Part shown: positions 765 through 11,113 of the stretch, in pieces | How the letters are laid out: every line of letters begins with the position of its first letter | Numbering within the stretch: the stretch's first letter is position 1 | NCBI GenBank assembly: GCA_018058095.1 | Contig: JAGPCO010000027.1 | Span: 1 to 64,000 of the forward strand | DNA length: 64,000 bases | Source: Kofleriaceae bacterium | Lineage (GTDB): Bacteria; Myxococcota_A; Polyangia; Haliangiales; Haliangiaceae | Direction of reading: 5' to 3' | Program-made: the position numbers and the translations under genes | The notes under the pieces: generated by a model | The model's input: only the letters and a program-made list of their open reading frames with translations | The model's database searches: none | Told to the model about the DNA's origin: nothing

Positions 765-1748
765 CTAGCCGGCCAGCGGCGGCCGCTCGATCAGGTGCAG
801 GGACGGCGGCATGGTGCGGGCCTCGCGCGCGGCCACGTCCATGTCGAAGTAGGCCAGCACGCTGGTCTGCTGCCCGGGCAGGAGATCGATGATGGTGACG
901 GCGCTGCCGGTGTAGATGCGCCACAGGCCGAGGCCGGCGCCGCCGCCGGAGGTGTCGACCACCTGGGCGCTGGCGTCGTCGCTGGCGCCGGCGGCGCCGC
1001 GGGCGATGCCGGCGGCGACGTGGTCGCGGGTCAGGCGTCCGAACGGATCGGTGACCTGGATGCCGATCATCAGGCCGTCGGTGCCGAACCGCACGATCGG
1101 CACGTCGGCGTCGTCGAGGGTGATGTCCACGGTGCGATCGTGGGCGTAGCGGGCGCGGCCGTACTCGTCGGCGGGCGCGTCGTACATCGCGTTCATGATC
1201 AGCTCGTGCGCGACCTCGCCGACCCGGGCCGCCAGCCTGGCCCCGGCGCCGGCGCGCTCGGCCAGGGTGCTGATCTCGGCCACCACCGCGTCGCGATCGG
1301 CCGAGGTGCGGGGCCGGAACTTGGCGGTGTGTGGTGGGTTGGCGAACACCTCGGCGACGTGGGTCGGGTCGCGACCGGGGTCGAGCACGTTGCGGGTGAC
1401 CAGGCCGATCTCCCACGGCCGGGGCATCGACTGGAACGACGGCCACCCGAGCAGGCTGACGATCTGAGCGTGGCGGGCGATGCGGGTGCACAGCGGCGGC
1501 ATCTCGCCGGCGTTCCAGAACGCCAGCTTCATGCCCGGGTACAGGCGCGTCGACCACTCGAGCGCGAGGTCGGCGTCGACCGCGTCACACAGCATGAGCT
1601 GCGCATCGGGGGCGAGCTGGGCCCGGACCTGCTCGGGATCGTCGCCCGCGGCGACCGGGACCAGGCCGGCGGTGGCCGAGACGATGCGGGCGCTACGTTG
1701 CAGCACCGCGCGGTTGCGCTCGAGCACGGCGATCCGAGGGGCGCTCAT
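765..1748 (-). CDS. Receiver-like / HATPase (anti-sigma-type kinase) protein
   Basis: The product is 327 aa. Residues about 1-120 resemble a response-regulator receiver (Asp in LMLCD), but the usual conserved Lys region is not evident, so it may be a pseudo-receiver. Residues about 165-310 form a histidine-kinase-like ATPase fold: an N-box HELIMNAMYDAP near residue 180 and a glycine box GGGAGLGLWRI near 266. No histidine phospho-acceptor domain is seen, so it looks more like a SpoIIAB/RsbW-type protein kinase or anti-sigma ATPase than a classical sensor kinase. Its ATG overlaps the stop of the upstream kinase gene by 4 bp (ATGA), so the two are translationally coupled. It is the last gene of the four-gene operon. 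Its target is unknown; no sigma factor gene lies next to it. Confidence 0.8.
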   Translation of the reverse strand: MSAPRIAVLERNRAVLQRSARIVSATAGLVPVAAGDDPEQVRAQLAPDAQLMLCDAVDADLALEWSTRLYPGMKLAFWNAGEMPPLCTRIARHAQIVSLLGWPSFQSMPRPWEIGLVTRNVLDPGRDPTHVAEVFANPPHTAKFRPRTSADRDAVVAEISTLAERAGAGARLAARVGEVAHELIMNAMYDAPADEYGRARYAHDRTVDITLDDADVPIVRFGTDGLMIGIQVTDPFGRLTRDHVAAGIARGAAGASDDASAQVVDTSGGGAGLGLWRIYTGSAVTIIDLLPGQQTSVLAYFDMDVAAREARTMPPSLHLIERPPLAG

Positions 1749-4700
1749 GGTTCGACCTCGACCTGCTGCGTGAGGCCACCACGTTCCACGTCGAGCGTCA
1801 ATGGTCGCCGCGAGGCCAGCTCGGTCAGCGCGGCGGCGCCGATCACCGCCTCCTGCGCCGCGGCCAGCACGCGATCGCCGACCAGCAGTGGGCAGCCGGC
1901 GCCCGCGCCCACCACGACCGCGCCCAGGCCGCGGCTCGGGTGGGCCGACACCAGGTCGCATCCGAACACGGCGTGCGCGGTGCCGTAGTAGGCCAGCGCT
2001 CGATCGTAGCTGGCGGCGGCCAGCGCCAGGGTGACCGTGACCTCGTAGCCGGCGTCGGTGCGGCGGCTGCGCACGTCGTGACGATCGGGCGCGGCGAAGG
2101 CGCCGACCTGGCGATCGAACACGTCGGCGATGGCCCGGTCGGACGTGGTGGCGCCGCCGCCGGCCTGAGCGAACCGCGCCGGCAGATCGACCTCGAGCTG
2201 CCCGACCAGGCGGGCCACCGCCTGGGCCCGCGCCGCGCCGAGCGCCGCCTCGCTGGTGGCGCCCTGGCCGACGCCGACCGCCATCCAGCGATCGCGCTCC
2301 GACCAGACCACGCGAGCGGCCGGGGCAGGGCCGGGTGCAGCCGGTCGGGGCGCGTCGCGGGTCACGATCGCGACCACCACCCCCAGCGCGCCGACCGCGC
2401 CGAGGCCGAGCACGACCGGCCACAGGCGCCGGCGCGGCGCCGCCGGCCGCGGCGTCAGGCCCGGGGCCGGGTCGCTCGGACCGGCCGCCGCGGGGTCGAC
2501 GATCACCGCGGCCAGCTCGGTCGGCGCCATCGCCAGGCGGTTCGCGTCGAGCGCCGCCGGGGCGCGTGCCGCTGGCGCCGCGGCCGGGCCGGTCGGCACG
2601 GGCGTCGGCGTCGGCGTCGGCGCCGGCGTCGCCGCCGCGGCGGTCGCCGGTGCAGGCACCGCAGGATCGAGGCCAGACAGATCGATCTCGATCAGGTCCG
2701 CGTCGCAGCGGCGGCACACCGGGACGTGGCTGCCGTCGCGCAGGCGATCGAGCTGGCGGCGTGACATCGTCACCGTGCGCCGGGCGTTACAGGCGGGGCA
2801 CTTGCCCTCGACCGCGACCGACACGACGGTGAGAGGAGGGCCGCTGGTCCCCCCGCCCGGGCTCCCGGTCGACGGCAGCAGGGTCGACATCGCGACCGGG
2901 CAGCCGGCGATGTCGACCGCGGGCACCTCGGGGCCGAGCCCGCGCAGGGCGGCGAGGATCCCGGCGTGGACGTCGGGGCCGAGCTGGCCCGCCGCCAGCA
3001 GGTCGAGCACGACGCGGCCCTCGAGACCATCGAGCACGCGGCTCCACCGGAACGAGGGCTCGATCGGGCGCAGCACGCGCAGGCGGGTGACGTTGCCCTC
3101 GATGATCTTGTCGATCGGGCCATCGGTGTGGGCGGCACCCTCGAGGCGATCGAGCATGACCCGCACCAGGGGCGGGATCGGCTGGCCCAGGTGCGGGATG
3201 ATGCCGGCGAAGTAGTTGACGTGGTCGTCGAACTGCGAGGCGCCGCCGCAGCGCGGGCACGGTACGTCGGTGATGCGACCGCGCAGGATCTGGGCGGCAT
3301 CCCGCTCGCTGTCGAGCACGTGCGGAAAGTCGTGCCCGCAGCTGCGGCACAGGAACGGGACCTGGAACGACACCACGCGAGCCGGGCCCGCGAAGCCGCG
3401 GATCATCGCCAGCTGGGTCACCACCGCCTCCGAACAGCGGGCCAGGTAGACCCGGGCGACGTCGCCGCGCTCGACGATGGCGCTGTTCATCTCCATCCAC
3501 TCGCGCACCCCGTACGAGCTGATGCGCTCGATCGCCGACAGGTCCATCACGACCATCCCGCGCAGGCTGTGGCCGAGCGCGCCGCCGCGGAAGGTCTCGT
3601 TGAGGCGCGGCTCCGGGGTGATGACCGTGATGCCGTCGCGGTTGGCGGTGCCTTCCTCGAGCGGGGCGTTGCCGTGCGCGTAGATGACCGGCTGCGACAT
3701 GTCGCGGGTGGTGCCGGCCAGCTCGGCGATGGGCGAGGTGAGCGTCGTCTCGCCCAGCTCACGCGGCTGGATCGTCGTCGGGTCGAGCGAGTCGTCGACG
3801 GCGGCGCGCGCGCGCGCCAGCGACGCCACCTCGTGCGCCAGGTCGCCGTGGCCGGCGACCGCGGTGTTCCAGCGCGCGCCCTGGTCACCGAACAGCTCGA
3901 CCATGTAGCCCGCCAGCGCACGGGCGTCGGCGGCCAGGCCCTGGTCGCGCGCCAGCTGCTCGATCGCCAGCTGCATGTCGCGCATCGACCGGTAGCGGCT
4001 CTCGGGGCGCGCGGCCAGCGCGGTCATGACCACGTCGTCGAGCGCGGCCGGCACCTCGACGCTGACCGCCGTCGGGGGCACCACCTCGTGGCCGACGATG
4101 GCCATCATCAGGCTGAACTCGCCCTGGGGTTCGGCGTCCTCGCCCCGCACCACGTACGGCCGCCGGCCGACGGCGAGCTCGTACAGGATGACGCCGGCGG
4201 CGTACACGTCGGTCCGCCGGTCGAGCGCGCTGCCGCGGATCTGCTCGGGCGCCATGTACGGCACCTTGCCCTTGAGCGCGCCAGCCCGGGTCTGGTGCAC
4301 CCGGACCCGGCTCTTGGCGATGCCGAAGTCGACGATCTTGACCGCGCCGTCGAAGGTCACCAGGACGTTCTGGGGCGACACGTCGCGGTGCACCACCTCC
4401 ATCGGCTGGCCCTCGGTGGTGGTGGCCTCGTGGGCGTGGTGCAGCCCGGCGCAGATGCCGCGGACGATGAGCAGGGCCAGCGGCAGCGGCAGCGGGGCGC
4501 CGTGCTGGTGCGCGGTCCGCATCAGCGTGCGCAGGTCGACCCCGTGCAGGTACTCCATGGCCAGGAACGGCACCCCGGCCTCGAACCCGGCCTGGAACAT
4601 CCGCACCACGTTGGGATGGTCGAGCGCCGCCGTGATCCGACCCTCGTCGACGAACATCTCGACGTAGTCGGGGTCGACCAGGTGCTCGGGCAAGAGGCGC

Positions 4701-4834
4701 TTGACCACCGCGACCGGCGCCGCGTCCGCCGCCACACCGCGCGCGACGTGGATCTCCGCCATCCCGCCCGAGGCGATGCGGGCGACGAGCTGGTAGTTGC
4801 CGATGCGACCGGCCCCGCTGGTGACGCTGCTCAT
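1745..4834 (-). CDS. Ser/Thr protein kinase with STAS-like and zinc-ribbon domains, one TM segment
   Basis: The product is 1029 aa from the ATG at 4834. This start is 25 bp after the previous gene and opens directly into the kinase domain. The kinase (about 10-290) has a glycine loop (ASGGMAEI), VVKRL lysine, HRDVSPQN near 145, DFG near 168 and APEQ, so it looks active. Next comes a STAS-like domain (about 400-490; DLSAIERISSYGVREW), a CxxC zinc ribbon (CRSCG...CPRCGG), a second weaker STAS-like domain (about 578-650), a second zinc ribbon (CPAC...CRRC), a Pro/Ala/Thr-rich linker, one transmembrane helix (about 803-825) and a C-terminal domain recalling LPP20-type lipoproteins. The STAS-zinc-ribbon-TM block is shared with the neighbouring double-FIST protein. 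I infer that it phosphorylates a STAS domain in a partner-switching pathway at the membrane. Confidence 0.88.
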   Translation of the reverse strand: MSSVTSGAGRIGNYQLVARIASGGMAEIHVARGVAADAAPVAVVKRLLPEHLVDPDYVEMFVDEGRITAALDHPNVVRMFQAGFEAGVPFLAMEYLHGVDLRTLMRTAHQHGAPLPLPLALLIVRGICAGLHHAHEATTTEGQPMEVVHRDVSPQNVLVTFDGAVKIVDFGIAKSRVRVHQTRAGALKGKVPYMAPEQIRGSALDRRTDVYAAGVILYELAVGRRPYVVRGEDAEPQGEFSLMMAIVGHEVVPPTAVSVEVPAALDDVVMTALAARPESRYRSMRDMQLAIEQLARDQGLAADARALAGYMVELFGDQGARWNTAVAGHGDLAHEVASLARARAAVDDSLDPTTIQPRELGETTLTSPIAELAGTTRDMSQPVIYAHGNAPLEEGTANRDGITVITPEPRLNETFRGGALGHSLRGMVVMDLSAIERISSYGVREWMEMNSAIVERGDVARVYLARCSEAVVTQLAMIRGFAGPARVVSFQVPFLCRSCGHDFPHVLDSERDAAQILRGRITDVPCPRCGGASQFDDHVNYFAGIIPHLGQPIPPLVRVMLDRLEGAAHTDGPIDKIIEGNVTRLRVLRPIEPSFRWSRVLDGLEGRVVLDLLAAGQLGPDVHAGILAALRGLGPEVPAVDIAGCPVAMSTLLPSTGSPGGGTSGPPLTVVSVAVEGKCPACNARRTVTMSRRQLDRLRDGSHVPVCRRCDADLIEIDLSGLDPAVPAPATAAAATPAPTPTPTPVPTGPAAAPAARAPAALDANRLAMAPTELAAVIVDPAAAGPSDPAPGLTPRPAAPRRRLWPVVLGLGAVGALGVVVAIVTRDAPRPAAPGPAPAARVVWSERDRWMAVGVGQGATSEAALGAARAQAVARLVGQLEVDLPARFAQAGGGATTSDRAIADVFDRQVGAFAAPDRHDVRSRRTDAGYEVTVTLALAAASYDRALAYYGTAHAVFGCDLVSAHPSRGLGAVVVGAGAGCPLLVGDRVLAAAQEAVIGAAALTELASRRPLTLDVERGGLTQQVEVEP

Positions 4835-4859
4835 GGACGTGGCGGCTCGGGCAGGCGGC

Positions 4860-7800
4860 TCAGCGCGGGTCGGGGCGGAGGAAGCCGACGTTGCGAGAGG
4901 CGCCCGCGCTCTCGAGTTCGACGATGACACGCTGGTCGTACGGGGTGTCGACCCAGGCCTGCAGCGCCGCGGACTCGAACGCCTTGGCCCCGGGGTGGGG
5001 CTTGCCGGCGACCTTGAGCACGACGTCGCCCGGGCGCACGGCGGCTTGCGCGGCGGCCGTGCGGGGCTCGACCGCGAGCACGATCAGATCACCCTTGGTC
5101 GGGATGGTGGCGTCGAGCCGTGGGAACAACAGGCCGAACGTCATGCCGCGGAACCGCCCGGTGGCGCGGTACGACTTGACCACGTCGTCGTAGGCGGCGC
5201 GCGTCAGCTTGAAGCGCGCGTACACCTCGATGCCATCCGCGCTCTTGCGGGTGGAGGTGTCGACCCGCTCGATCCCGGCGATGGCCGGCTGCTGGCGCGC
5301 GAACCGGGCTGCGGCGCCCGGGCCGGCGGGCGGCATGCTGGCGGCGCGGGCGTCGAGGAACTTGCCGATGGTGGAGCCGACCAGGTCCTGCTGGACCCGG
5401 TCGAGCAGGCGCAACGAGGCGTCGAGGCGAGCGCCCTCGATCGCCGCCTCGGCCGACGGCGCGACCACGCTGCGGCCGACCGCGTAGACCGCGTCGGCCT
5501 CGACCACCAGCGCGCGATCGACCCAGCCCGGCGGTAGCTCACCGCCGCCGGTCCAGGTCGGCTCGGCCTCGGCCTCCGGCGCCGCGCTGCCCGAACCCGC
5601 GGCCGGGGCCAGCACCGCCGCCGGCGTGGCCCCATCGCGGCGGCCGCTGGCCAGCACCATGATCAGGGCGCCGATCGCGCCGGCCAGACCGACCGCCAGC
5701 ACGAACGTGGCCAGGCCTGGGCCTCGCCGCGCCGGCGCGACCGCGGTGGCCACCGTGGCCGGCACCGTCGGCGCCAGCATCGACGGCAGCGGCACCGGGG
5801 CGCTCGCCTCGTCGACCGGCCCGAGCATCGGCGGCGGCAGCGTCGGGCTGCCGACCCGGCGGGCCAGGATCTCGATGCCGGGTGGGATGGCGATCTCGAG
5901 CTCGCCGTTGCAGCGCTTGCACCGCACGACGTGGGCTCGCCCGGCGGCGCGATCGGCGGCCAGGTCGGGCACCCGGACGGTCGCGACCCGGTGCACGCCG
6001 CAGGTGCCGCACCGGCCCTCCAGGGTGACCGAGGTGATGCGGATCTTGGGCGAGGCCAGGCGCAGCTGGCTGGCCAGCGCGAACGTGGCGCCCTCGACCG
6101 ACGCCTCGCTCACCTCGCCGGGGAGCGCCCGCAGCGCGTCCTCGAGCGCGCTCACCCCGGCGGCGTCGACGCCGGTCGAGTTCGCGAAGTCGAGGATGAG
6201 CCGTCCCTCGATCCCGTCGAGGATCCGGCGCCAGCGCAGCTGCGGGGTCAGCCGGGTCTGGATCCGGACCCGGGTGCTGTCACCCTCGACCACCTTGTCG
6301 ATCTCATCCCGGCGGGTCGGCGCCGCGGCGTTGGCCAGGCTGTCGTGCAGCGCGCGCAGGTCGGCCGGGACCGGCTGGCGCAGGTGGGCGGTGGCGAAGC
6401 CGAGGTAGGTCCGGGCATCGTCATCGAAGCGAGCCGGCTCGCTGCAGCTCGGGCACTTGACGGTGTCACGCGCGCCGCCCTCGATGACCTCGGCCTCGAA
6501 CTCGCAGTCGAACAGGCGCTCGAAGTTGTGACCGCAGGCGTCACACAGGTAGGGCGCGAAGAACGAGATGATGCGGGCGCCGCCGTCGAACTTGCGGATC
6601 ATGCCCAGCTGGTTGACGACCGACTCCGAGCAGCGCCCGAGGTAACACTCGGTCACGTCCCGATTGGCCGCCGCGAACATCGACAGCCACTCGCGCACGC
6701 CGAACGAGGTCACCCGATCGACCGCGCCGAGGTCGAACAGGACGCGCCCGCGCAGGGTGCGCCCGAGCGCATCGCCCTTGAACGCCTCGGTCAAGCGTCC
6801 GGCGATGCGCACCACGGTGACGTCGCCGTGGCTGATCTTCTCGATCGTCGCCTCGGCCGGACCGGGCGGCTGCTGGGCCCGGAGCAGGGGCCCGGTCAGC
6901 TCGCGCGCCGGCGGCGGCTGGGCGGCGGCCTTGATCGGGTTGGTCATGTCGACCGTCGACAACCGCGTGAACGGCGCCGACGCATCGACCGCGGGCAGCC
7001 GGCCGGTGCCGCGGCCCGGATCCGTGCCGGTGGCGACGACCCGACCCGACGGCGCCGCCGCCCGTGGTCCGGTGCCGGCGGCGATGCCGCCGCTGCTGCT
7101 GGCCGCTCGCGGCAGCGGCGTCGGCGACTCGGAGATCAGGGTCACCGTCATGGTCTGGTTGTGCAGGTCGCTGTGCCCGATCGCGAACGGGCTGATCTGG
7201 CTGTAGGCGTAGAAGCCGGTGAGGTGCACCGTCTTGGCCGAGATCCCGGCCCGCACCGCCTCGAGCTCCTCGCTGGTGCGATCGCCGAGCACCAGCCGGC
7301 GGCCGATACACGACACCGCCAGCGCCAGGCAGGCCTGACCGACCGGCTTGCCGGTCGACATGGCGGCGGCGGCGGCCAGCCCGCCGCTGTCGATCAGCCG
7401 ATCGTAGTCGGCCTTCATCAGCTGGGCCCGCCAGCCGCTCGGGATCTCGCCGGCGAAGGTCAGGCTCTGGGCCCGGGCGTCGACCGCGAGCACGGTGCGG
7501 ATGACGACCTTGTCGTCGCTGGCGCTGGCGCGCAGCGCGAGCGGGAACAGCAGGCCGACCGACGGCAGATCGCGCGCCCGGTCGCCCAGGTACTCGGCGT
7601 ACAGCGCGAGCGCGGGCTTGCCGTCGAGCTCGTACAGGACGTTGCCCTCGGCGCGGGTGACCGTGCGCTCGGGCCCGAACTTGTCCCAGCCGCCCTTGCT
7701 GCCGTGGCCGAGCACGACGTGGTCGCCGTAGAAGCCGACCGCCGCCACCAGGTTGGGCTTGAGCTTGGAGCCGACCGCGACCCAGGTCCGACGGAAGTTG

Positions 7801-9806
7801 GCGCCGTCGCCGGCCAGGCCGCCGGTCACCACGACGCTGTCGGCCAGCACCGCGTTGAAGCCGCGCAGCAGCTCGGTGCCGCTGACGTTGAGGCCCTCCG
7901 ACAGCACCAGCACCCCGCGCAGGCCGGCCTTGATCGACAGCCGCTTGGCCAGCTGCTGGCCGGCGGTGAAGCTGTCGGCCGCGGAGCGGACCTCGAGCGA
8001 GGCCAGCGCGATGTCGGTCTGGTCGAACCGGGCCACGCTCACCGCGAGGGAGTGATCGCGCACCTCGGCGCCGCGCACCTCACCGGCGGTGGAGCAGCCG
8101 ACCACCAGCGAGTTGGGGAAGGCCTGGCCGAGCTGCTCGAACGCCGCCGGATCCTCGGCGAACTCGGGCGCGCCGAAGGCCAGCACCAGGGTGCGCGGTG
8201 AGTCGAGCGGCGGGAACGGGCCCGACCACGATCGGCTGCCGATGTCGTAGGACACGTCGGCGATCGCCAGGCCGGCGCCGGTGGTGGCGGGCGCGGCGCC
8301 AGGCGCCGCCGCGCCGGGCGCCGGTGGCGGCCGGGTCGCGGGCTTGGCCTGCCGGGCCACCGCCGGCAAGGTGGTGGTCATGACCCGGCCGGGCCGGTTC
8401 TGCGCGGCGGCCTGGGCCTGGGCCTGGGCCAGCGCCTGCGCCTGGGTCGGCGCGACGCCCGGCCGCGGCGTCGTCGGGCTCGCCGGTGCCGTCGTGGGCG
8501 CGGGGGCGGGCGCGGGCGCGGTGCCGTGGACGGTCGCACGCAGCGCAGGCACCGGGCCGGTCGGTGTCGGCGCCGGTCGGGTCGGGACCGGGCCGGTCGC
8601 CCCGGGGCTGGTCCGCGGCGGGGGCGTGGTCCGGCTGCGCGGCCGCGGCAGCGGCGTGGCCGACTCCGACAGCACGGTGACCGTGAGGGTCTCGTTGTGC
8701 AGCGCCGGGTGCCCGGTCGGCGCCGGGCTGATCTGGCTGTAGGCGTAGAAGCCGATCAGCTGCGCGCCGGCGGCTGGCAGCGCCGCCCGCACCCCCTCGA
8801 GCTCCTCGCCGACGCGGTCGCCCAGGACCAGGCGCCGGCCGATACACGACACGGCGATGGTGAGCGAGGTGTCGCCGGCTGGCTGGGTCGTGGTGGCGGC
8901 GCCGACGACGGCGGTGGCCGCGTCGACCAGGTGGTCGGGGTCGGCCTTGAGGAGCTGGCATCGGCCGCCGGCCGGCACGTCGCCGGCGAAGGTGATGCTC
9001 TGCGCCTGGGGGTCGACGGCGAGGACCAGGCGGACGGTGGCGCGCTCGTCGGTGGCCGAGGCGCGCACGGCGATGGGGAAGGCGACGCCGGCGGAGGGCA
9101 GGTCACGCGCGCGTTCGCCGAGGTACTCGGCGTACACCGCCAGCGCCGGCCGGCCGTCGAGCTCGTACAGCACGTTGCCCTCGGCCCGGGTGATGGTGCG
9201 CTCGGGCCCGAGCTTGTCCCATCCACCCTGGGCGCCGTGGCCGATCACGATGTGATCGCCGTAGAAGCCGATGGCGGCGACCAGGTTGGGCTTGACCTTG
9301 CCGGCCACCGCGACCCAGGTCCGCTTGAAGTTGGTGCCGTCGCCGGCCAGGCCGCCGGTGACGACGACGTTGTCGGGCAACACCGCGGACAGCCCGCGGA
9401 CCAGGTCGGCGCCGTTGATGCCGAGGCCTTCGGACAGGACCAGGACCCCGCGCAGGCCGGCCTTGATGGACAGGCGCTTGGCCAGCTGCTGGCCGGCGGT
9501 GAAGCTGTCGGCGGCGGCGCGGACCTCGAGCGAGGCCAGCGCGATGTCGGTCTGATCGAAGCGGGTGACCGCCACCGCCACCGAGCGGTCGCGCACGGCG
9601 GTGTCGTGGATCTCGCCGGCGGTCGAGCAGCCGACCACCAGCGCCTTGGGGAAGGTCTTGGACAGGTCCTCGATGATGCGGGCGTGGTTGGCCACGTCGG
9701 CGGTGCCGAACGCCAGGACCAGGGTCCGCGGCGAGTCCAGCCCACCGTCGGGGGCCGCCGACCAGGTCCGGCGGTCGAGATCGTAGGAGTAGGACTGGCT
9801 GTGCAT
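4860..9806 (-). CDS. Giant double-FIST sensor protein with STAS-like, zinc-ribbon, TM and PDZ domains
   Basis: The product is 1648 aa from the ATG at 9806, preceded by a GGAGT ribosome-binding site; the frame is open further upstream but without a domain. Two tandem FIST (N+C) sensory domains lie at about 15-385 and 525-890 (LDSPRTLVLAFG, VVGCSTAGE, VLVLSEGL, VTGGLAGDG, NVLYELDG in both). They are separated by a Pro/Ala/Gln-rich linker. Then follow a STAS-like domain (about 997-1085; DLGAVDRVTSFGVREW), zinc ribbons (CDACG/CPSC, later CGTCG/CKRC), a second STAS-like segment, a TM helix (about 1360-1382), an LPP20-like domain and a C-terminal PDZ-like domain (about 1550-1648). FIST domains are thought to bind small ligands such as amino acids. 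It is probably the sensory input of this operon. The two FIST copies are very similar, which suggests internal duplication. Confidence 0.88.
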   Translation of the reverse strand: MHSQSYSYDLDRRTWSAAPDGGLDSPRTLVLAFGTADVANHARIIEDLSKTFPKALVVGCSTAGEIHDTAVRDRSVAVAVTRFDQTDIALASLEVRAAADSFTAGQQLAKRLSIKAGLRGVLVLSEGLGINGADLVRGLSAVLPDNVVVTGGLAGDGTNFKRTWVAVAGKVKPNLVAAIGFYGDHIVIGHGAQGGWDKLGPERTITRAEGNVLYELDGRPALAVYAEYLGERARDLPSAGVAFPIAVRASATDERATVRLVLAVDPQAQSITFAGDVPAGGRCQLLKADPDHLVDAATAVVGAATTTQPAGDTSLTIAVSCIGRRLVLGDRVGEELEGVRAALPAAGAQLIGFYAYSQISPAPTGHPALHNETLTVTVLSESATPLPRPRSRTTPPPRTSPGATGPVPTRPAPTPTGPVPALRATVHGTAPAPAPAPTTAPASPTTPRPGVAPTQAQALAQAQAQAAAQNRPGRVMTTTLPAVARQAKPATRPPPAPGAAAPGAAPATTGAGLAIADVSYDIGSRSWSGPFPPLDSPRTLVLAFGAPEFAEDPAAFEQLGQAFPNSLVVGCSTAGEVRGAEVRDHSLAVSVARFDQTDIALASLEVRSAADSFTAGQQLAKRLSIKAGLRGVLVLSEGLNVSGTELLRGFNAVLADSVVVTGGLAGDGANFRRTWVAVGSKLKPNLVAAVGFYGDHVVLGHGSKGGWDKFGPERTVTRAEGNVLYELDGKPALALYAEYLGDRARDLPSVGLLFPLALRASASDDKVVIRTVLAVDARAQSLTFAGEIPSGWRAQLMKADYDRLIDSGGLAAAAAMSTGKPVGQACLALAVSCIGRRLVLGDRTSEELEAVRAGISAKTVHLTGFYAYSQISPFAIGHSDLHNQTMTVTLISESPTPLPRAASSSGGIAAGTGPRAAAPSGRVVATGTDPGRGTGRLPAVDASAPFTRLSTVDMTNPIKAAAQPPPARELTGPLLRAQQPPGPAEATIEKISHGDVTVVRIAGRLTEAFKGDALGRTLRGRVLFDLGAVDRVTSFGVREWLSMFAAANRDVTECYLGRCSESVVNQLGMIRKFDGGARIISFFAPYLCDACGHNFERLFDCEFEAEVIEGGARDTVKCPSCSEPARFDDDARTYLGFATAHLRQPVPADLRALHDSLANAAAPTRRDEIDKVVEGDSTRVRIQTRLTPQLRWRRILDGIEGRLILDFANSTGVDAAGVSALEDALRALPGEVSEASVEGATFALASQLRLASPKIRITSVTLEGRCGTCGVHRVATVRVPDLAADRAAGRAHVVRCKRCNGELEIAIPPGIEILARRVGSPTLPPPMLGPVDEASAPVPLPSMLAPTVPATVATAVAPARRGPGLATFVLAVGLAGAIGALIMVLASGRRDGATPAAVLAPAAGSGSAAPEAEAEPTWTGGGELPPGWVDRALVVEADAVYAVGRSVVAPSAEAAIEGARLDASLRLLDRVQQDLVGSTIGKFLDARAASMPPAGPGAAARFARQQPAIAGIERVDTSTRKSADGIEVYARFKLTRAAYDDVVKSYRATGRFRGMTFGLLFPRLDATIPTKGDLIVLAVEPRTAAAQAAVRPGDVVLKVAGKPHPGAKAFESAALQAWVDTPYDQRVIVELESAGASRNVGFLRPDPR

Positions 9807-9898
9807 CGTTGGGACTCCGGGCCGAGCGCGGCAGGGCGGACGTGACAGGACGAAACCTGAGGCGTGCGACGTGGCGCGACGCGGGGGGCGAGGGCAGC

Positions 9899-11113
9899 TT
9901 ACTTCACGTAGGTGACGACGATCGTGATGTCGTCCCCCAGCGGCAGATCGGGGCCGCGGAACGTCGCGAGCGCCTCGATGATCGCGTCGCGCACCGCGAT
10001 GGCGCCGCCGCTGGCCGCGCGCAGGCTGACCGCGCGCAGGCGACGCTCGGTGAACTGTTCGCCGTCGGGGTTCTCGGCCTCGACCACGCCATCGGTGGTC
10101 CACACCAGGAGGTCGCCCGAGCGGACCGGCGTGGTCTCGGTCCGGTACCGGCTGTCGGCGGCGGCGCCGAGCGGGGGGCCCTCGACCACCAGCGGGTGCA
10201 CCACGCCGCCGCGCAACAGGATCGGGAAGTGGTGGCCGGCGTTGGCCGAGGTCACGGTCATGGCGCGCGGGTCGATGATCGCCGCGACGCAGGTCATGAG
10301 GACCCGCCGCTTGGCGGTCTCGAACAGCGCCAGGTTCATGTGCCGGAGCAGCTCGTCGGCGGTGATGGCGGCGCCGGTCAGCTGGCGCGACAGCTCACAG
10401 GCCGCCTTGGCCGCGCCGGTGAAGATGGCCGAGGCGATGCCGTGGCCGGTGACGTCGCCGAGCACGAGCAGGGTCCGATCACCGCCGACGTCGGCCACGC
10501 TCCACCAGTCACCGCCACACTCGGCGGCGGGCTGGAAGTGACCGGCGATGACCAGGCCCTCGCGGTCGAGCTCGTTCTCGCCAGGGACCAGCAGCTGTTG
10601 CACCGCGCGCGCCACCTCGATCTCCTTGCGCGCCGAGGTCTGCTCCGCCATCTCGGTCATGAGCCGGGTCAGGTCCTCGGCCAGGCGGATCATGTGGCCA
10701 CGCACGATCGACAGCTCGCTGGTGTGCTCCGGAATGCCGGCGCGCTGGCGATCGAGCAGGGCGCCGAGCTTGATGGCCAGCTCGCGCTTGGACGACTCGA
10801 TGCCACCGGTGAGCGCCTCGTCGCGCACCAGCTGGCCGAACTCGGCAAGGGTCGACGACACGTTGCTGACCAGCTCCTGCACGGTCGCGCGCTCGAGATC
10901 GACCTGGTGACGCCACTGCTCGATCTCGTTGTTCGACAGATCGACCGACCGCGTGAGCAGGGCGCGATCGTCGTTCATGTGCTGGTAGTGCTCGTTGATG
11001 GTCGCCAGCAGGCGGGCCCAGGCCTCGGCGCTGGGCGGATCGGACTCGCTGGCGATCCCCAGCCTCTTGAGCTGGCGCGCCAGCACCGGATCCAACGAGC
11101 GTGGTCCCATCAT
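9899..11113 (-). CDS. SpoIIE-type PP2C serine phosphatase
   Basis: The product is 404 aa. The N-terminal half (about 1-185) is helical and probably coiled-coil, with no known sensor domain. The C-terminal half (about 190-404) is a PP2C/SpoIIE phosphatase with metal-binding motifs intact: FQPAAECGGDWW, LGDVTGHG, WTTDG and LGDDITIVV. Two consecutive ATG codons (11113, 11110) fit the start; I use the first. It is the first gene of the four-gene minus-strand operon, 92 bp ahead of the FIST protein. In partner-switching systems such phosphatases dephosphorylate STAS proteins, and the two downstream products contain STAS-like domains with Ser/Thr at the expected position. A weak TTGCAG/TACAGT promoter-like pair lies at 11154-11124, with non-ideal spacing. 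Confidence 0.9.
   Translation of the reverse strand: MMGPRSLDPVLARQLKRLGIASESDPPSAEAWARLLATINEHYQHMNDDRALLTRSVDLSNNEIEQWRHQVDLERATVQELVSNVSSTLAEFGQLVRDEALTGGIESSKRELAIKLGALLDRQRAGIPEHTSELSIVRGHMIRLAEDLTRLMTEMAEQTSARKEIEVARAVQQLLVPGENELDREGLVIAGHFQPAAECGGDWWSVADVGGDRTLLVLGDVTGHGIASAIFTGAAKAACELSRQLTGAAITADELLRHMNLALFETAKRRVLMTCVAAIIDPRAMTVTSANAGHHFPILLRGGVVHPLVVEGPPLGAAADSRYRTETTPVRSGDLLVWTTDGVVEAENPDGEQFTERRLRAVSLRAASGGAIAVRDAIIEALATFRGPDLPLGDDITIVVTYVK

Follow-up and report, generated by a model that had tools for sequence, protein, structure and literature searches.

A double-FIST operon of Kofleriaceae as a candidate membrane-anchored partner-switching module within a wider STAS–zinc-ribbon family of Myxococcota

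Ser/Thr kinases and STAS proteins are unusually numerous in myxobacteria, and little of their wiring has been worked out. The locus described here raises the question of what kind of circuit is formed when a sensor, a kinase, a phosphatase and a HATPase are encoded in a single run of genes. We find four genes on the minus strand of the window, by which we mean the whole stretch of DNA analysed (64,000 bases of contig C190, which is 64,016 bases long and one of the 227 contigs of a 7.6-Mb assembly), and all gene and domain coordinates below refer to that strand. They encode a SpoIIE/RsbU-type PP2C phosphatase of 404 aa whose N-terminal helical domain is conserved (9899..11113), a double-FIST protein of 1648 aa that we call FIST2 (4860..9806), a Hanks-type Ser/Thr kinase of 1029 aa (1745..4834) and HAT, a 327-aa protein in which a degenerate receiver precedes a SpoIIAB/RsbW-like HATPase domain (765..1748). 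The coordinates given in the initial annotation hold, as do the couplings it described, namely a gap of 92 bp between the phosphatase gene and FIST2, a gap of 25 bp between FIST2 and the kinase gene, and an overlap of 4 bp between the kinase gene and HAT. Coding bias is strong in all four genes, with a third-position GC of 0.94–0.96 against 0.47–0.56 at position 2. On balance, we think it rather probable that the operon is a membrane-anchored partner-switching module.

A dispersed palindromic repeat of 118 bp abuts the operon near the contig end (651..768, no strand assigned). It has terminal inverted repeats (CTAGCAG..../....CTGCTAG), and the HAT gene takes its TAG stop codon from the CTAG at the end of the element. 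The 19-bp end of the element has 113 matches in the genome (none for the reversed control), with more than 30 paired elements. We do not regard it as part of the mechanism.

The two enzymes at either side of FIST2 appear to be intact. The phosphatase matches Pfam SpoIIE at 3e-40, and its metal-binding Asp residues (D202, D220, D341, D394/395) are kept in all ten operon orthologues. The kinase matches Pfam Pkinase at 5e-31; K45, E64, D151 and the DFG motif are found in 12/12 sequences, and HRD in 11 of them. FIST2 matches both FIST N and FIST C twice (5e-96 and 7e-59), which makes two complete FIST domains, so that the phosphatase, the two sensory domains and the kinase were all correctly recognized at the outset.

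The first FIST domain (residues 21–385; 8652..9746) and the second (residues 534–900; 7107..8207) are 69% identical to each other. The nearest functional comparison is with NosP, a haem-type FIST sensor of NO that acts with the histidine kinase NosK (PMC12570481). As with NosP, a FIST domain is here encoded beside a kinase, and the first domain matches NCBIfam NosP at 1e-36; this match scores 126.6 bits against a cut-off of 450, which does not make the protein a NosP equivalog. The operon differs in joining FIST to STAS within one protein and in its Ser/Thr chemistry, and it contains no two-component kinase. The conserved residues His190, His370, Cys60 and Cys321 are no more than candidates for haem binding. 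We also note that the paired FIST domains are 69–99% alike in most two-FIST proteins (window 7107–9746, L103, L104, L106, L112, L114), roughly matching or exceeding the likeness to FIST domains of other genera, the exception being L105 (37%), and that some FIST2 orthologues have one FIST domain only. This likeness within proteins, together with the single-FIST orthologues, suggests from sequence comparison that the domains have been repeatedly duplicated or gene-converted.

Behind the FIST domains lies a block that FIST2 shares with the kinase protein. FIST2 949–1602 and residues 360–1009 of the kinase protein are homologous (33% identity, E=6e-80), and the block consists of two STAS–zinc-ribbon units, a TM helix, a conserved C-terminal segment and a PDZ-like end. 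The shared cassette reported in the initial annotation is thus real, although it holds two such units and not one. Together with Pfam and the orthologues L103–L114, this comparison gives FIST2 the order FIST, FIST, two STAS–zinc-ribbon units, TM, conserved C-terminal domain and PDZ. Its first unit (residues 988–1129; 6420..6845) has four Cys, the zinc-ribbon cysteines of first units being invariant in the alignment; the second unit follows at 5895..6302 and the TM helix predicted by hydropathy, residues 1368–1386, at 5649..5705. In the kinase protein the units lie at 3224..3640 and 2693..3115, and the predicted TM helix, residues 807–825, at 2360..2416. The C-terminal conserved and PDZ-like domains of FIST2 (4863..5546) are probably periplasmic. 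The conserved segment had been called LPP20-like; it is homologous between the two proteins, but none of ten C-terminal segments gave a Pfam match to LPP20. The PDZ-like assignment was borne out, with PDZ_6 at 2e-4 in the window, where both STAS and PDZ stay below the Pfam cut-off, and with PDZ above the cut-off in several orthologues (for example 7e-13 in Sorangium).

Structure prediction confirmed the STAS-like segments, both units being predicted to adopt STAS folds. An AlphaFold model of the tandem, built from a 64-sequence alignment, has a mean pLDDT of 93 and a pTM of 0.65, which leaves the relative placement of the two units uncertain. Unit 2 matches SpoIIAA (1th8_B) with a Z of 10.7 over 92 residues. 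Unit 1 matches RsbV/SpoIIAA at 7.5–7.7, where a Z below 8 is weak when taken alone, and a Haliangium anti-sigma antagonist at 8.2; the STAS profile finds this antagonist by sequence as well (E 0.001), and 34 of the 64 members match Pfam STAS individually. Foldseek rows to SppA, with an rmsd near 18 Å, were discarded as spurious. Ser47 of the model starts a helix after the strand 33–45, the same placement as that of Ser58 in SpoIIAA.

To ask how general this serine is, a set is needed that was not chosen for it. A contig scan with the first-unit alignment pattern gave 76 loci, but that pattern itself demands serine, so the invariance seen in that alignment is biased; a contig scan with the FIST2 C-terminus alone gave no match. 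We therefore counted in a pattern-free set of 85 units gathered by profile from genomes of the family, without selection on serine. At the SpoIIAA-Ser58 position, 34/35 first units and 14/15 single units carry Ser, against 2/35 second units. The STAS–zinc-ribbon units thus include STAS proteins with a Ser at the SpoIIAA-Ser58 position. For the window, the proposal of a Ser or Thr at the phospho-site stands for both first units, as Ser1034 of FIST2 (codon 6705..6707) and Ser440 of the kinase protein (codon 3515–3517), and fails for both second units, of which that of FIST2 has Ala and that of the kinase protein likewise lacks Ser; Thr1033 and Ser439 are the residues preceding the Ser58-equivalent position. 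By their residues, then, the second units are not phosphorylatable at the canonical site. Ser1034 is kept in the FIST2 orthologues read, whereas the first unit of the kinase protein is degenerate in the G015 orthologue and missing in that of G011. The latter unit is consequently not an essential substrate, and the serine of FIST2 is the better switch candidate.

The second units keep the fold while lacking the phospho-serine, and the tandem cassette occurs twice in the operon, in FIST2 and in the kinase protein. Alternatively, this could mean that the STAS units of these two proteins assemble with each other, by way of second units, zinc ribbons and PDZ tails, into a membrane-anchored, stressosome-like hub whose output is local and not a sigma factor. 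A Listeria stressosome chain and RsbS are indeed among the fold matches of the STAS units, and no sigma factor was seen in the flanks scanned. G011 and G015, however, have a shortened cassette in the kinase protein, and single STAS–zinc-ribbon proteins without a partner cassette also pair with HATPases, and we consider such a hub decidedly unlikely as the full account of the operon.

HAT gave no match to Pfam and none to HisKA. Its AF2 model (pLDDT 92) has an intact Bergerat fold and a receiver-like N-terminus, in agreement with the initial description of the protein. The HATPase domain is closest to SpoIIAB (1l0o_A), with a Z of 11.9 across 138 residues, and to RsbW, with one of 10.9, and the N-terminus matches receiver domains at a Z of about 9. 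The ATPase boxes are well kept (E182 in 44/44 and N186 in 43/44 sequences; D234, G269, G270, G272 and G274 invariant). The receiver, on the other hand, is degenerate: while the overall fold is present, the operon group has E-R-N instead of the acidic pair, Asp55 in only 5/10 and Trp-Pro in the Lys region in 10/10, and it is not a canonical receiver with acidic pair, phospho-acceptor Asp and Lys. Control of HAT by Asp phosphorylation is unlikely for this reason. The top Foldseek match of full-length HAT is LvrC of Leptospira (PDB 9qih), a receiver-controlled putative anti-sigma factor (PMC13269768). The two share the same REC–Bergerat architecture, but the receiver of LvrC is canonical with phospho-acceptor D53, whereas that of HAT is without the usual acidic pair and Lys.

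The operon thus has a PP2C/SpoIIE phosphatase with its metal Asp residues and a SpoIIAB/RsbW-type HATPase without HisKA. It resembles the RsbU–RsbV–RsbW and SpoIIE–SpoIIAA–SpoIIAB systems of Bacillus in its PP2C phosphatase, in a STAS protein with Ser at the Ser58 position and in a Bergerat-fold ATPase without a histidine phospho-acceptor domain. It differs from them in that its STAS domains are tethered to the membrane, come in duplicate with zinc ribbons linked to them, and have FIST or a Hanks kinase as fusion partner. To our knowledge, canonical partner-switching STAS proteins are soluble and without zinc ribbons, which counts against the partner-switching reading. A further difference is that no sigma factor or other obvious target was found among the ten flanking genes scanned from the window and five other loci. 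The partner-switching proposal of the initial annotation therefore gains from the STAS folds, the near-invariant Ser, the SpoIIAB/RsbW-like HATPase, the intact catalytic residues and the pairing of STAS with HATPase genes, while the second STAS units without a canonical site, the degenerate receiver and the lack of a sigma factor in the flanks scanned do not fit it as well.

We suggest that a partner-switching module of this kind could work as follows. FIST2 would span the membrane once, and its FIST domains, on the cytoplasmic side, would sense a small ligand, with Ser1034 in its first STAS–zinc-ribbon unit as the putative switch. HAT would bind the unphosphorylated first unit and phosphorylate it, as its fold, its conserved N and G boxes and the gene pairing suggest, and the SpoIIE-type phosphatase, having intact catalytic residues, would reset the serine. 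The Hanks kinase, tethered by the same cassette, may be a second input that phosphorylates the STAS units or HAT. The ligand state of the FIST domains, and possibly the state of the envelope through the periplasmic PDZ-like tail, would shift the phospho-balance and so free or sequester HAT, which could then act on an unlinked target, perhaps a sigma factor, perhaps some other effector. Canonical phospho-sites have been lost from the second STAS units and from the HAT receiver, which probably serve in assembly.

As there are two candidate kinases, HAT and the Hanks kinase, the direction of phosphorylation is ambiguous. The Hanks kinase could phosphorylate the STAS serine, with HAT as a non-catalytic, ATP-dependent partner, which would turn the operon into a kinase/phosphatase pair with a HATPase adaptor. 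Its residues indicate that the kinase is catalytically intact, it shares the cassette with FIST2, STAS–zinc-ribbon units are fused to kinases at several other loci of the family, and fusions of STAS to kinases were noted in Sorangium cellulosum (PMC2887360). We nevertheless hold this to be unlikely, since the N and G boxes of the HATPase are strictly conserved and STAS–zinc-ribbon/HATPase pairs occur without a fused or same-orientation adjacent kinase (L035, L098 and loci of the C112 type), and we favor HAT as the kinase of a partner-switching module.

The pairing of these genes extends well beyond the operon. STAS–zinc-ribbon matches are present in 29 of the 30 genomes of the family to which the window belongs, often about eight per genome, and phylum-wide in 39/284 genomes. 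Among 27 full-length HAT homologues in the genomes of the family, 25 have a STAS–zinc-ribbon match no more than about 4 kb away on their contig (by hand tally the window's own HAT, two orthologous operons and 22 other loci), against a chance expectation of about 0.2 at about 8 matches per 8-Mb genome; the two without such a neighbour are both on short contigs. When loci were seeded with STAS, 52/59 HAT genes had a STAS–zinc-ribbon gene on their own strand no more than 500 bp away, in a set biased by the seeding. Such loci are related by descent, and the adjacency counts are not independent. The initial annotation had called the shared cassette unusual; it is instead family-wide and common beyond the operon, as the 25 HAT homologues beside a STAS–zinc-ribbon gene illustrate, and the idea that it is special to this operon can be dismissed given the 29/30 genomes with STAS–zinc-ribbon units. 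What the operon does is to add a FIST input to a lineage-wide STAS–zinc-ribbon signalling family.

Arrangements in the family include two STAS–zinc-ribbon units with TM and PDZ beside a REC–HATPase, two units with a kinase beside a HATPase, single units beside a HATPase or after SpoIIE, and a REC–PilZ protein with a STAS–zinc-ribbon unit. The first of these, as at L034:5666-8893 (G000:C112), is a gene pair without FIST or kinase that occurs in most genomes of the family, where the opposite strand often has a Hanks kinase gene close by, and it is more widely conserved than the FIST operon. Several genes for two units with a kinase are interleaved with HATPase genes at L083 and L084 (G014:C42, G004:C133), apparently as local expansions. 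The receiver–PilZ protein at L037:5142-6455 (G000:C207) could link c-di-GMP to the STAS family, and at L038:4392-6536 (G000:C18) a HATPase of the same subtype is fused to PEGA domains in a protein of 714 aa without an adjoining STAS gene.

The operon itself is rarer. Its gene set is conserved in other Myxococcota, though in varying gene order, and the partner-switching proposal holds up against the check on conservation in relatives as it does against that on the STAS folds. All four components occur together in the window, in G011 of the same genus (L041/L103), at L105 and L113, and in three complete Sorangium genomes (L104, L106, L107), although the kinase of L106 was not called as an intact frame, its STAS units being present. 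They are spread over two contigs each in G015 (L042 and L082) and in MAG P-RSF-IL-17 (L114 and L131). The gene for HAT closes the set in Kofleriaceae and L105 and opens it in Sorangium and L113. At L112, the kinase is fused to FIST-FIST, two STAS–zinc-ribbon units and PDZ, followed by HAT and SpoIIE; with HYD in place of HRD, this may be another kinase that was acquired in a separate event, in which case the link between the components would be the stronger. The FIST2 C-terminus was found in at least 2/284 genomes of the phylum, a lower bound with about ten candidates per genome scored.

The four genes might still be transcribed together and yet encode signalling proteins with separate functions, which by chance have a duplicated membrane module in common, and with STAS–zinc-ribbon units in 39/284 genomes of the phylum such a co-occurrence is easier here than in other bacteria. 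The same four components come together in three gene orders, and once with a kinase–FIST fusion, across Kofleriaceae, Sorangium cellulosum, Polyangiaceae and other Myxococcota, which makes this very improbable and supports reading them as one module.

A count of 71 STAS proteins (COG1366) in S. cellulosum, with fusions to eukaryote-like kinases, was published in 2010 (PMC2887360); these fusions are of the same kind as the kinase of the operon, and the main text of that paper mentions neither FIST nor this operon. Among open-licence papers, we found no published description of the operon and none linking a FIST domain with SpoIIE or with myxobacteria, and a STAS domain and a zinc ribbon appear together only in unrelated work. 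While the abundance of STAS proteins and their fusions to kinases in S. cellulosum were thus known, the FIST–STAS operon would be a new form of partner switching.

Looking further, we entertain as a tentative possibility that Myxococcota have expanded a membrane-tethered form of partner switching built on the STAS–zinc-ribbon unit. One and the same STAS switch would then be the target of both a SpoIIAB-like ATPase and a Hanks kinase, tandem pseudo-STAS units would form a stressosome-like hub, and FIST would be one of several interchangeable sensor heads. A sensor, a kinase, a phosphatase, a switch domain and a HATPase in one conserved set amount to a testable circuit leading from Hanks kinases to partner switching, and the set is found in the complete genomes of cultured S. 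cellulosum strains (So ce26, So ceGT47 and So0157-2). In conclusion, a STAS–zinc-ribbon family with a near-invariant serine predicts which of the many STAS proteins of these bacteria are real switches, and which HATPases are their partners.
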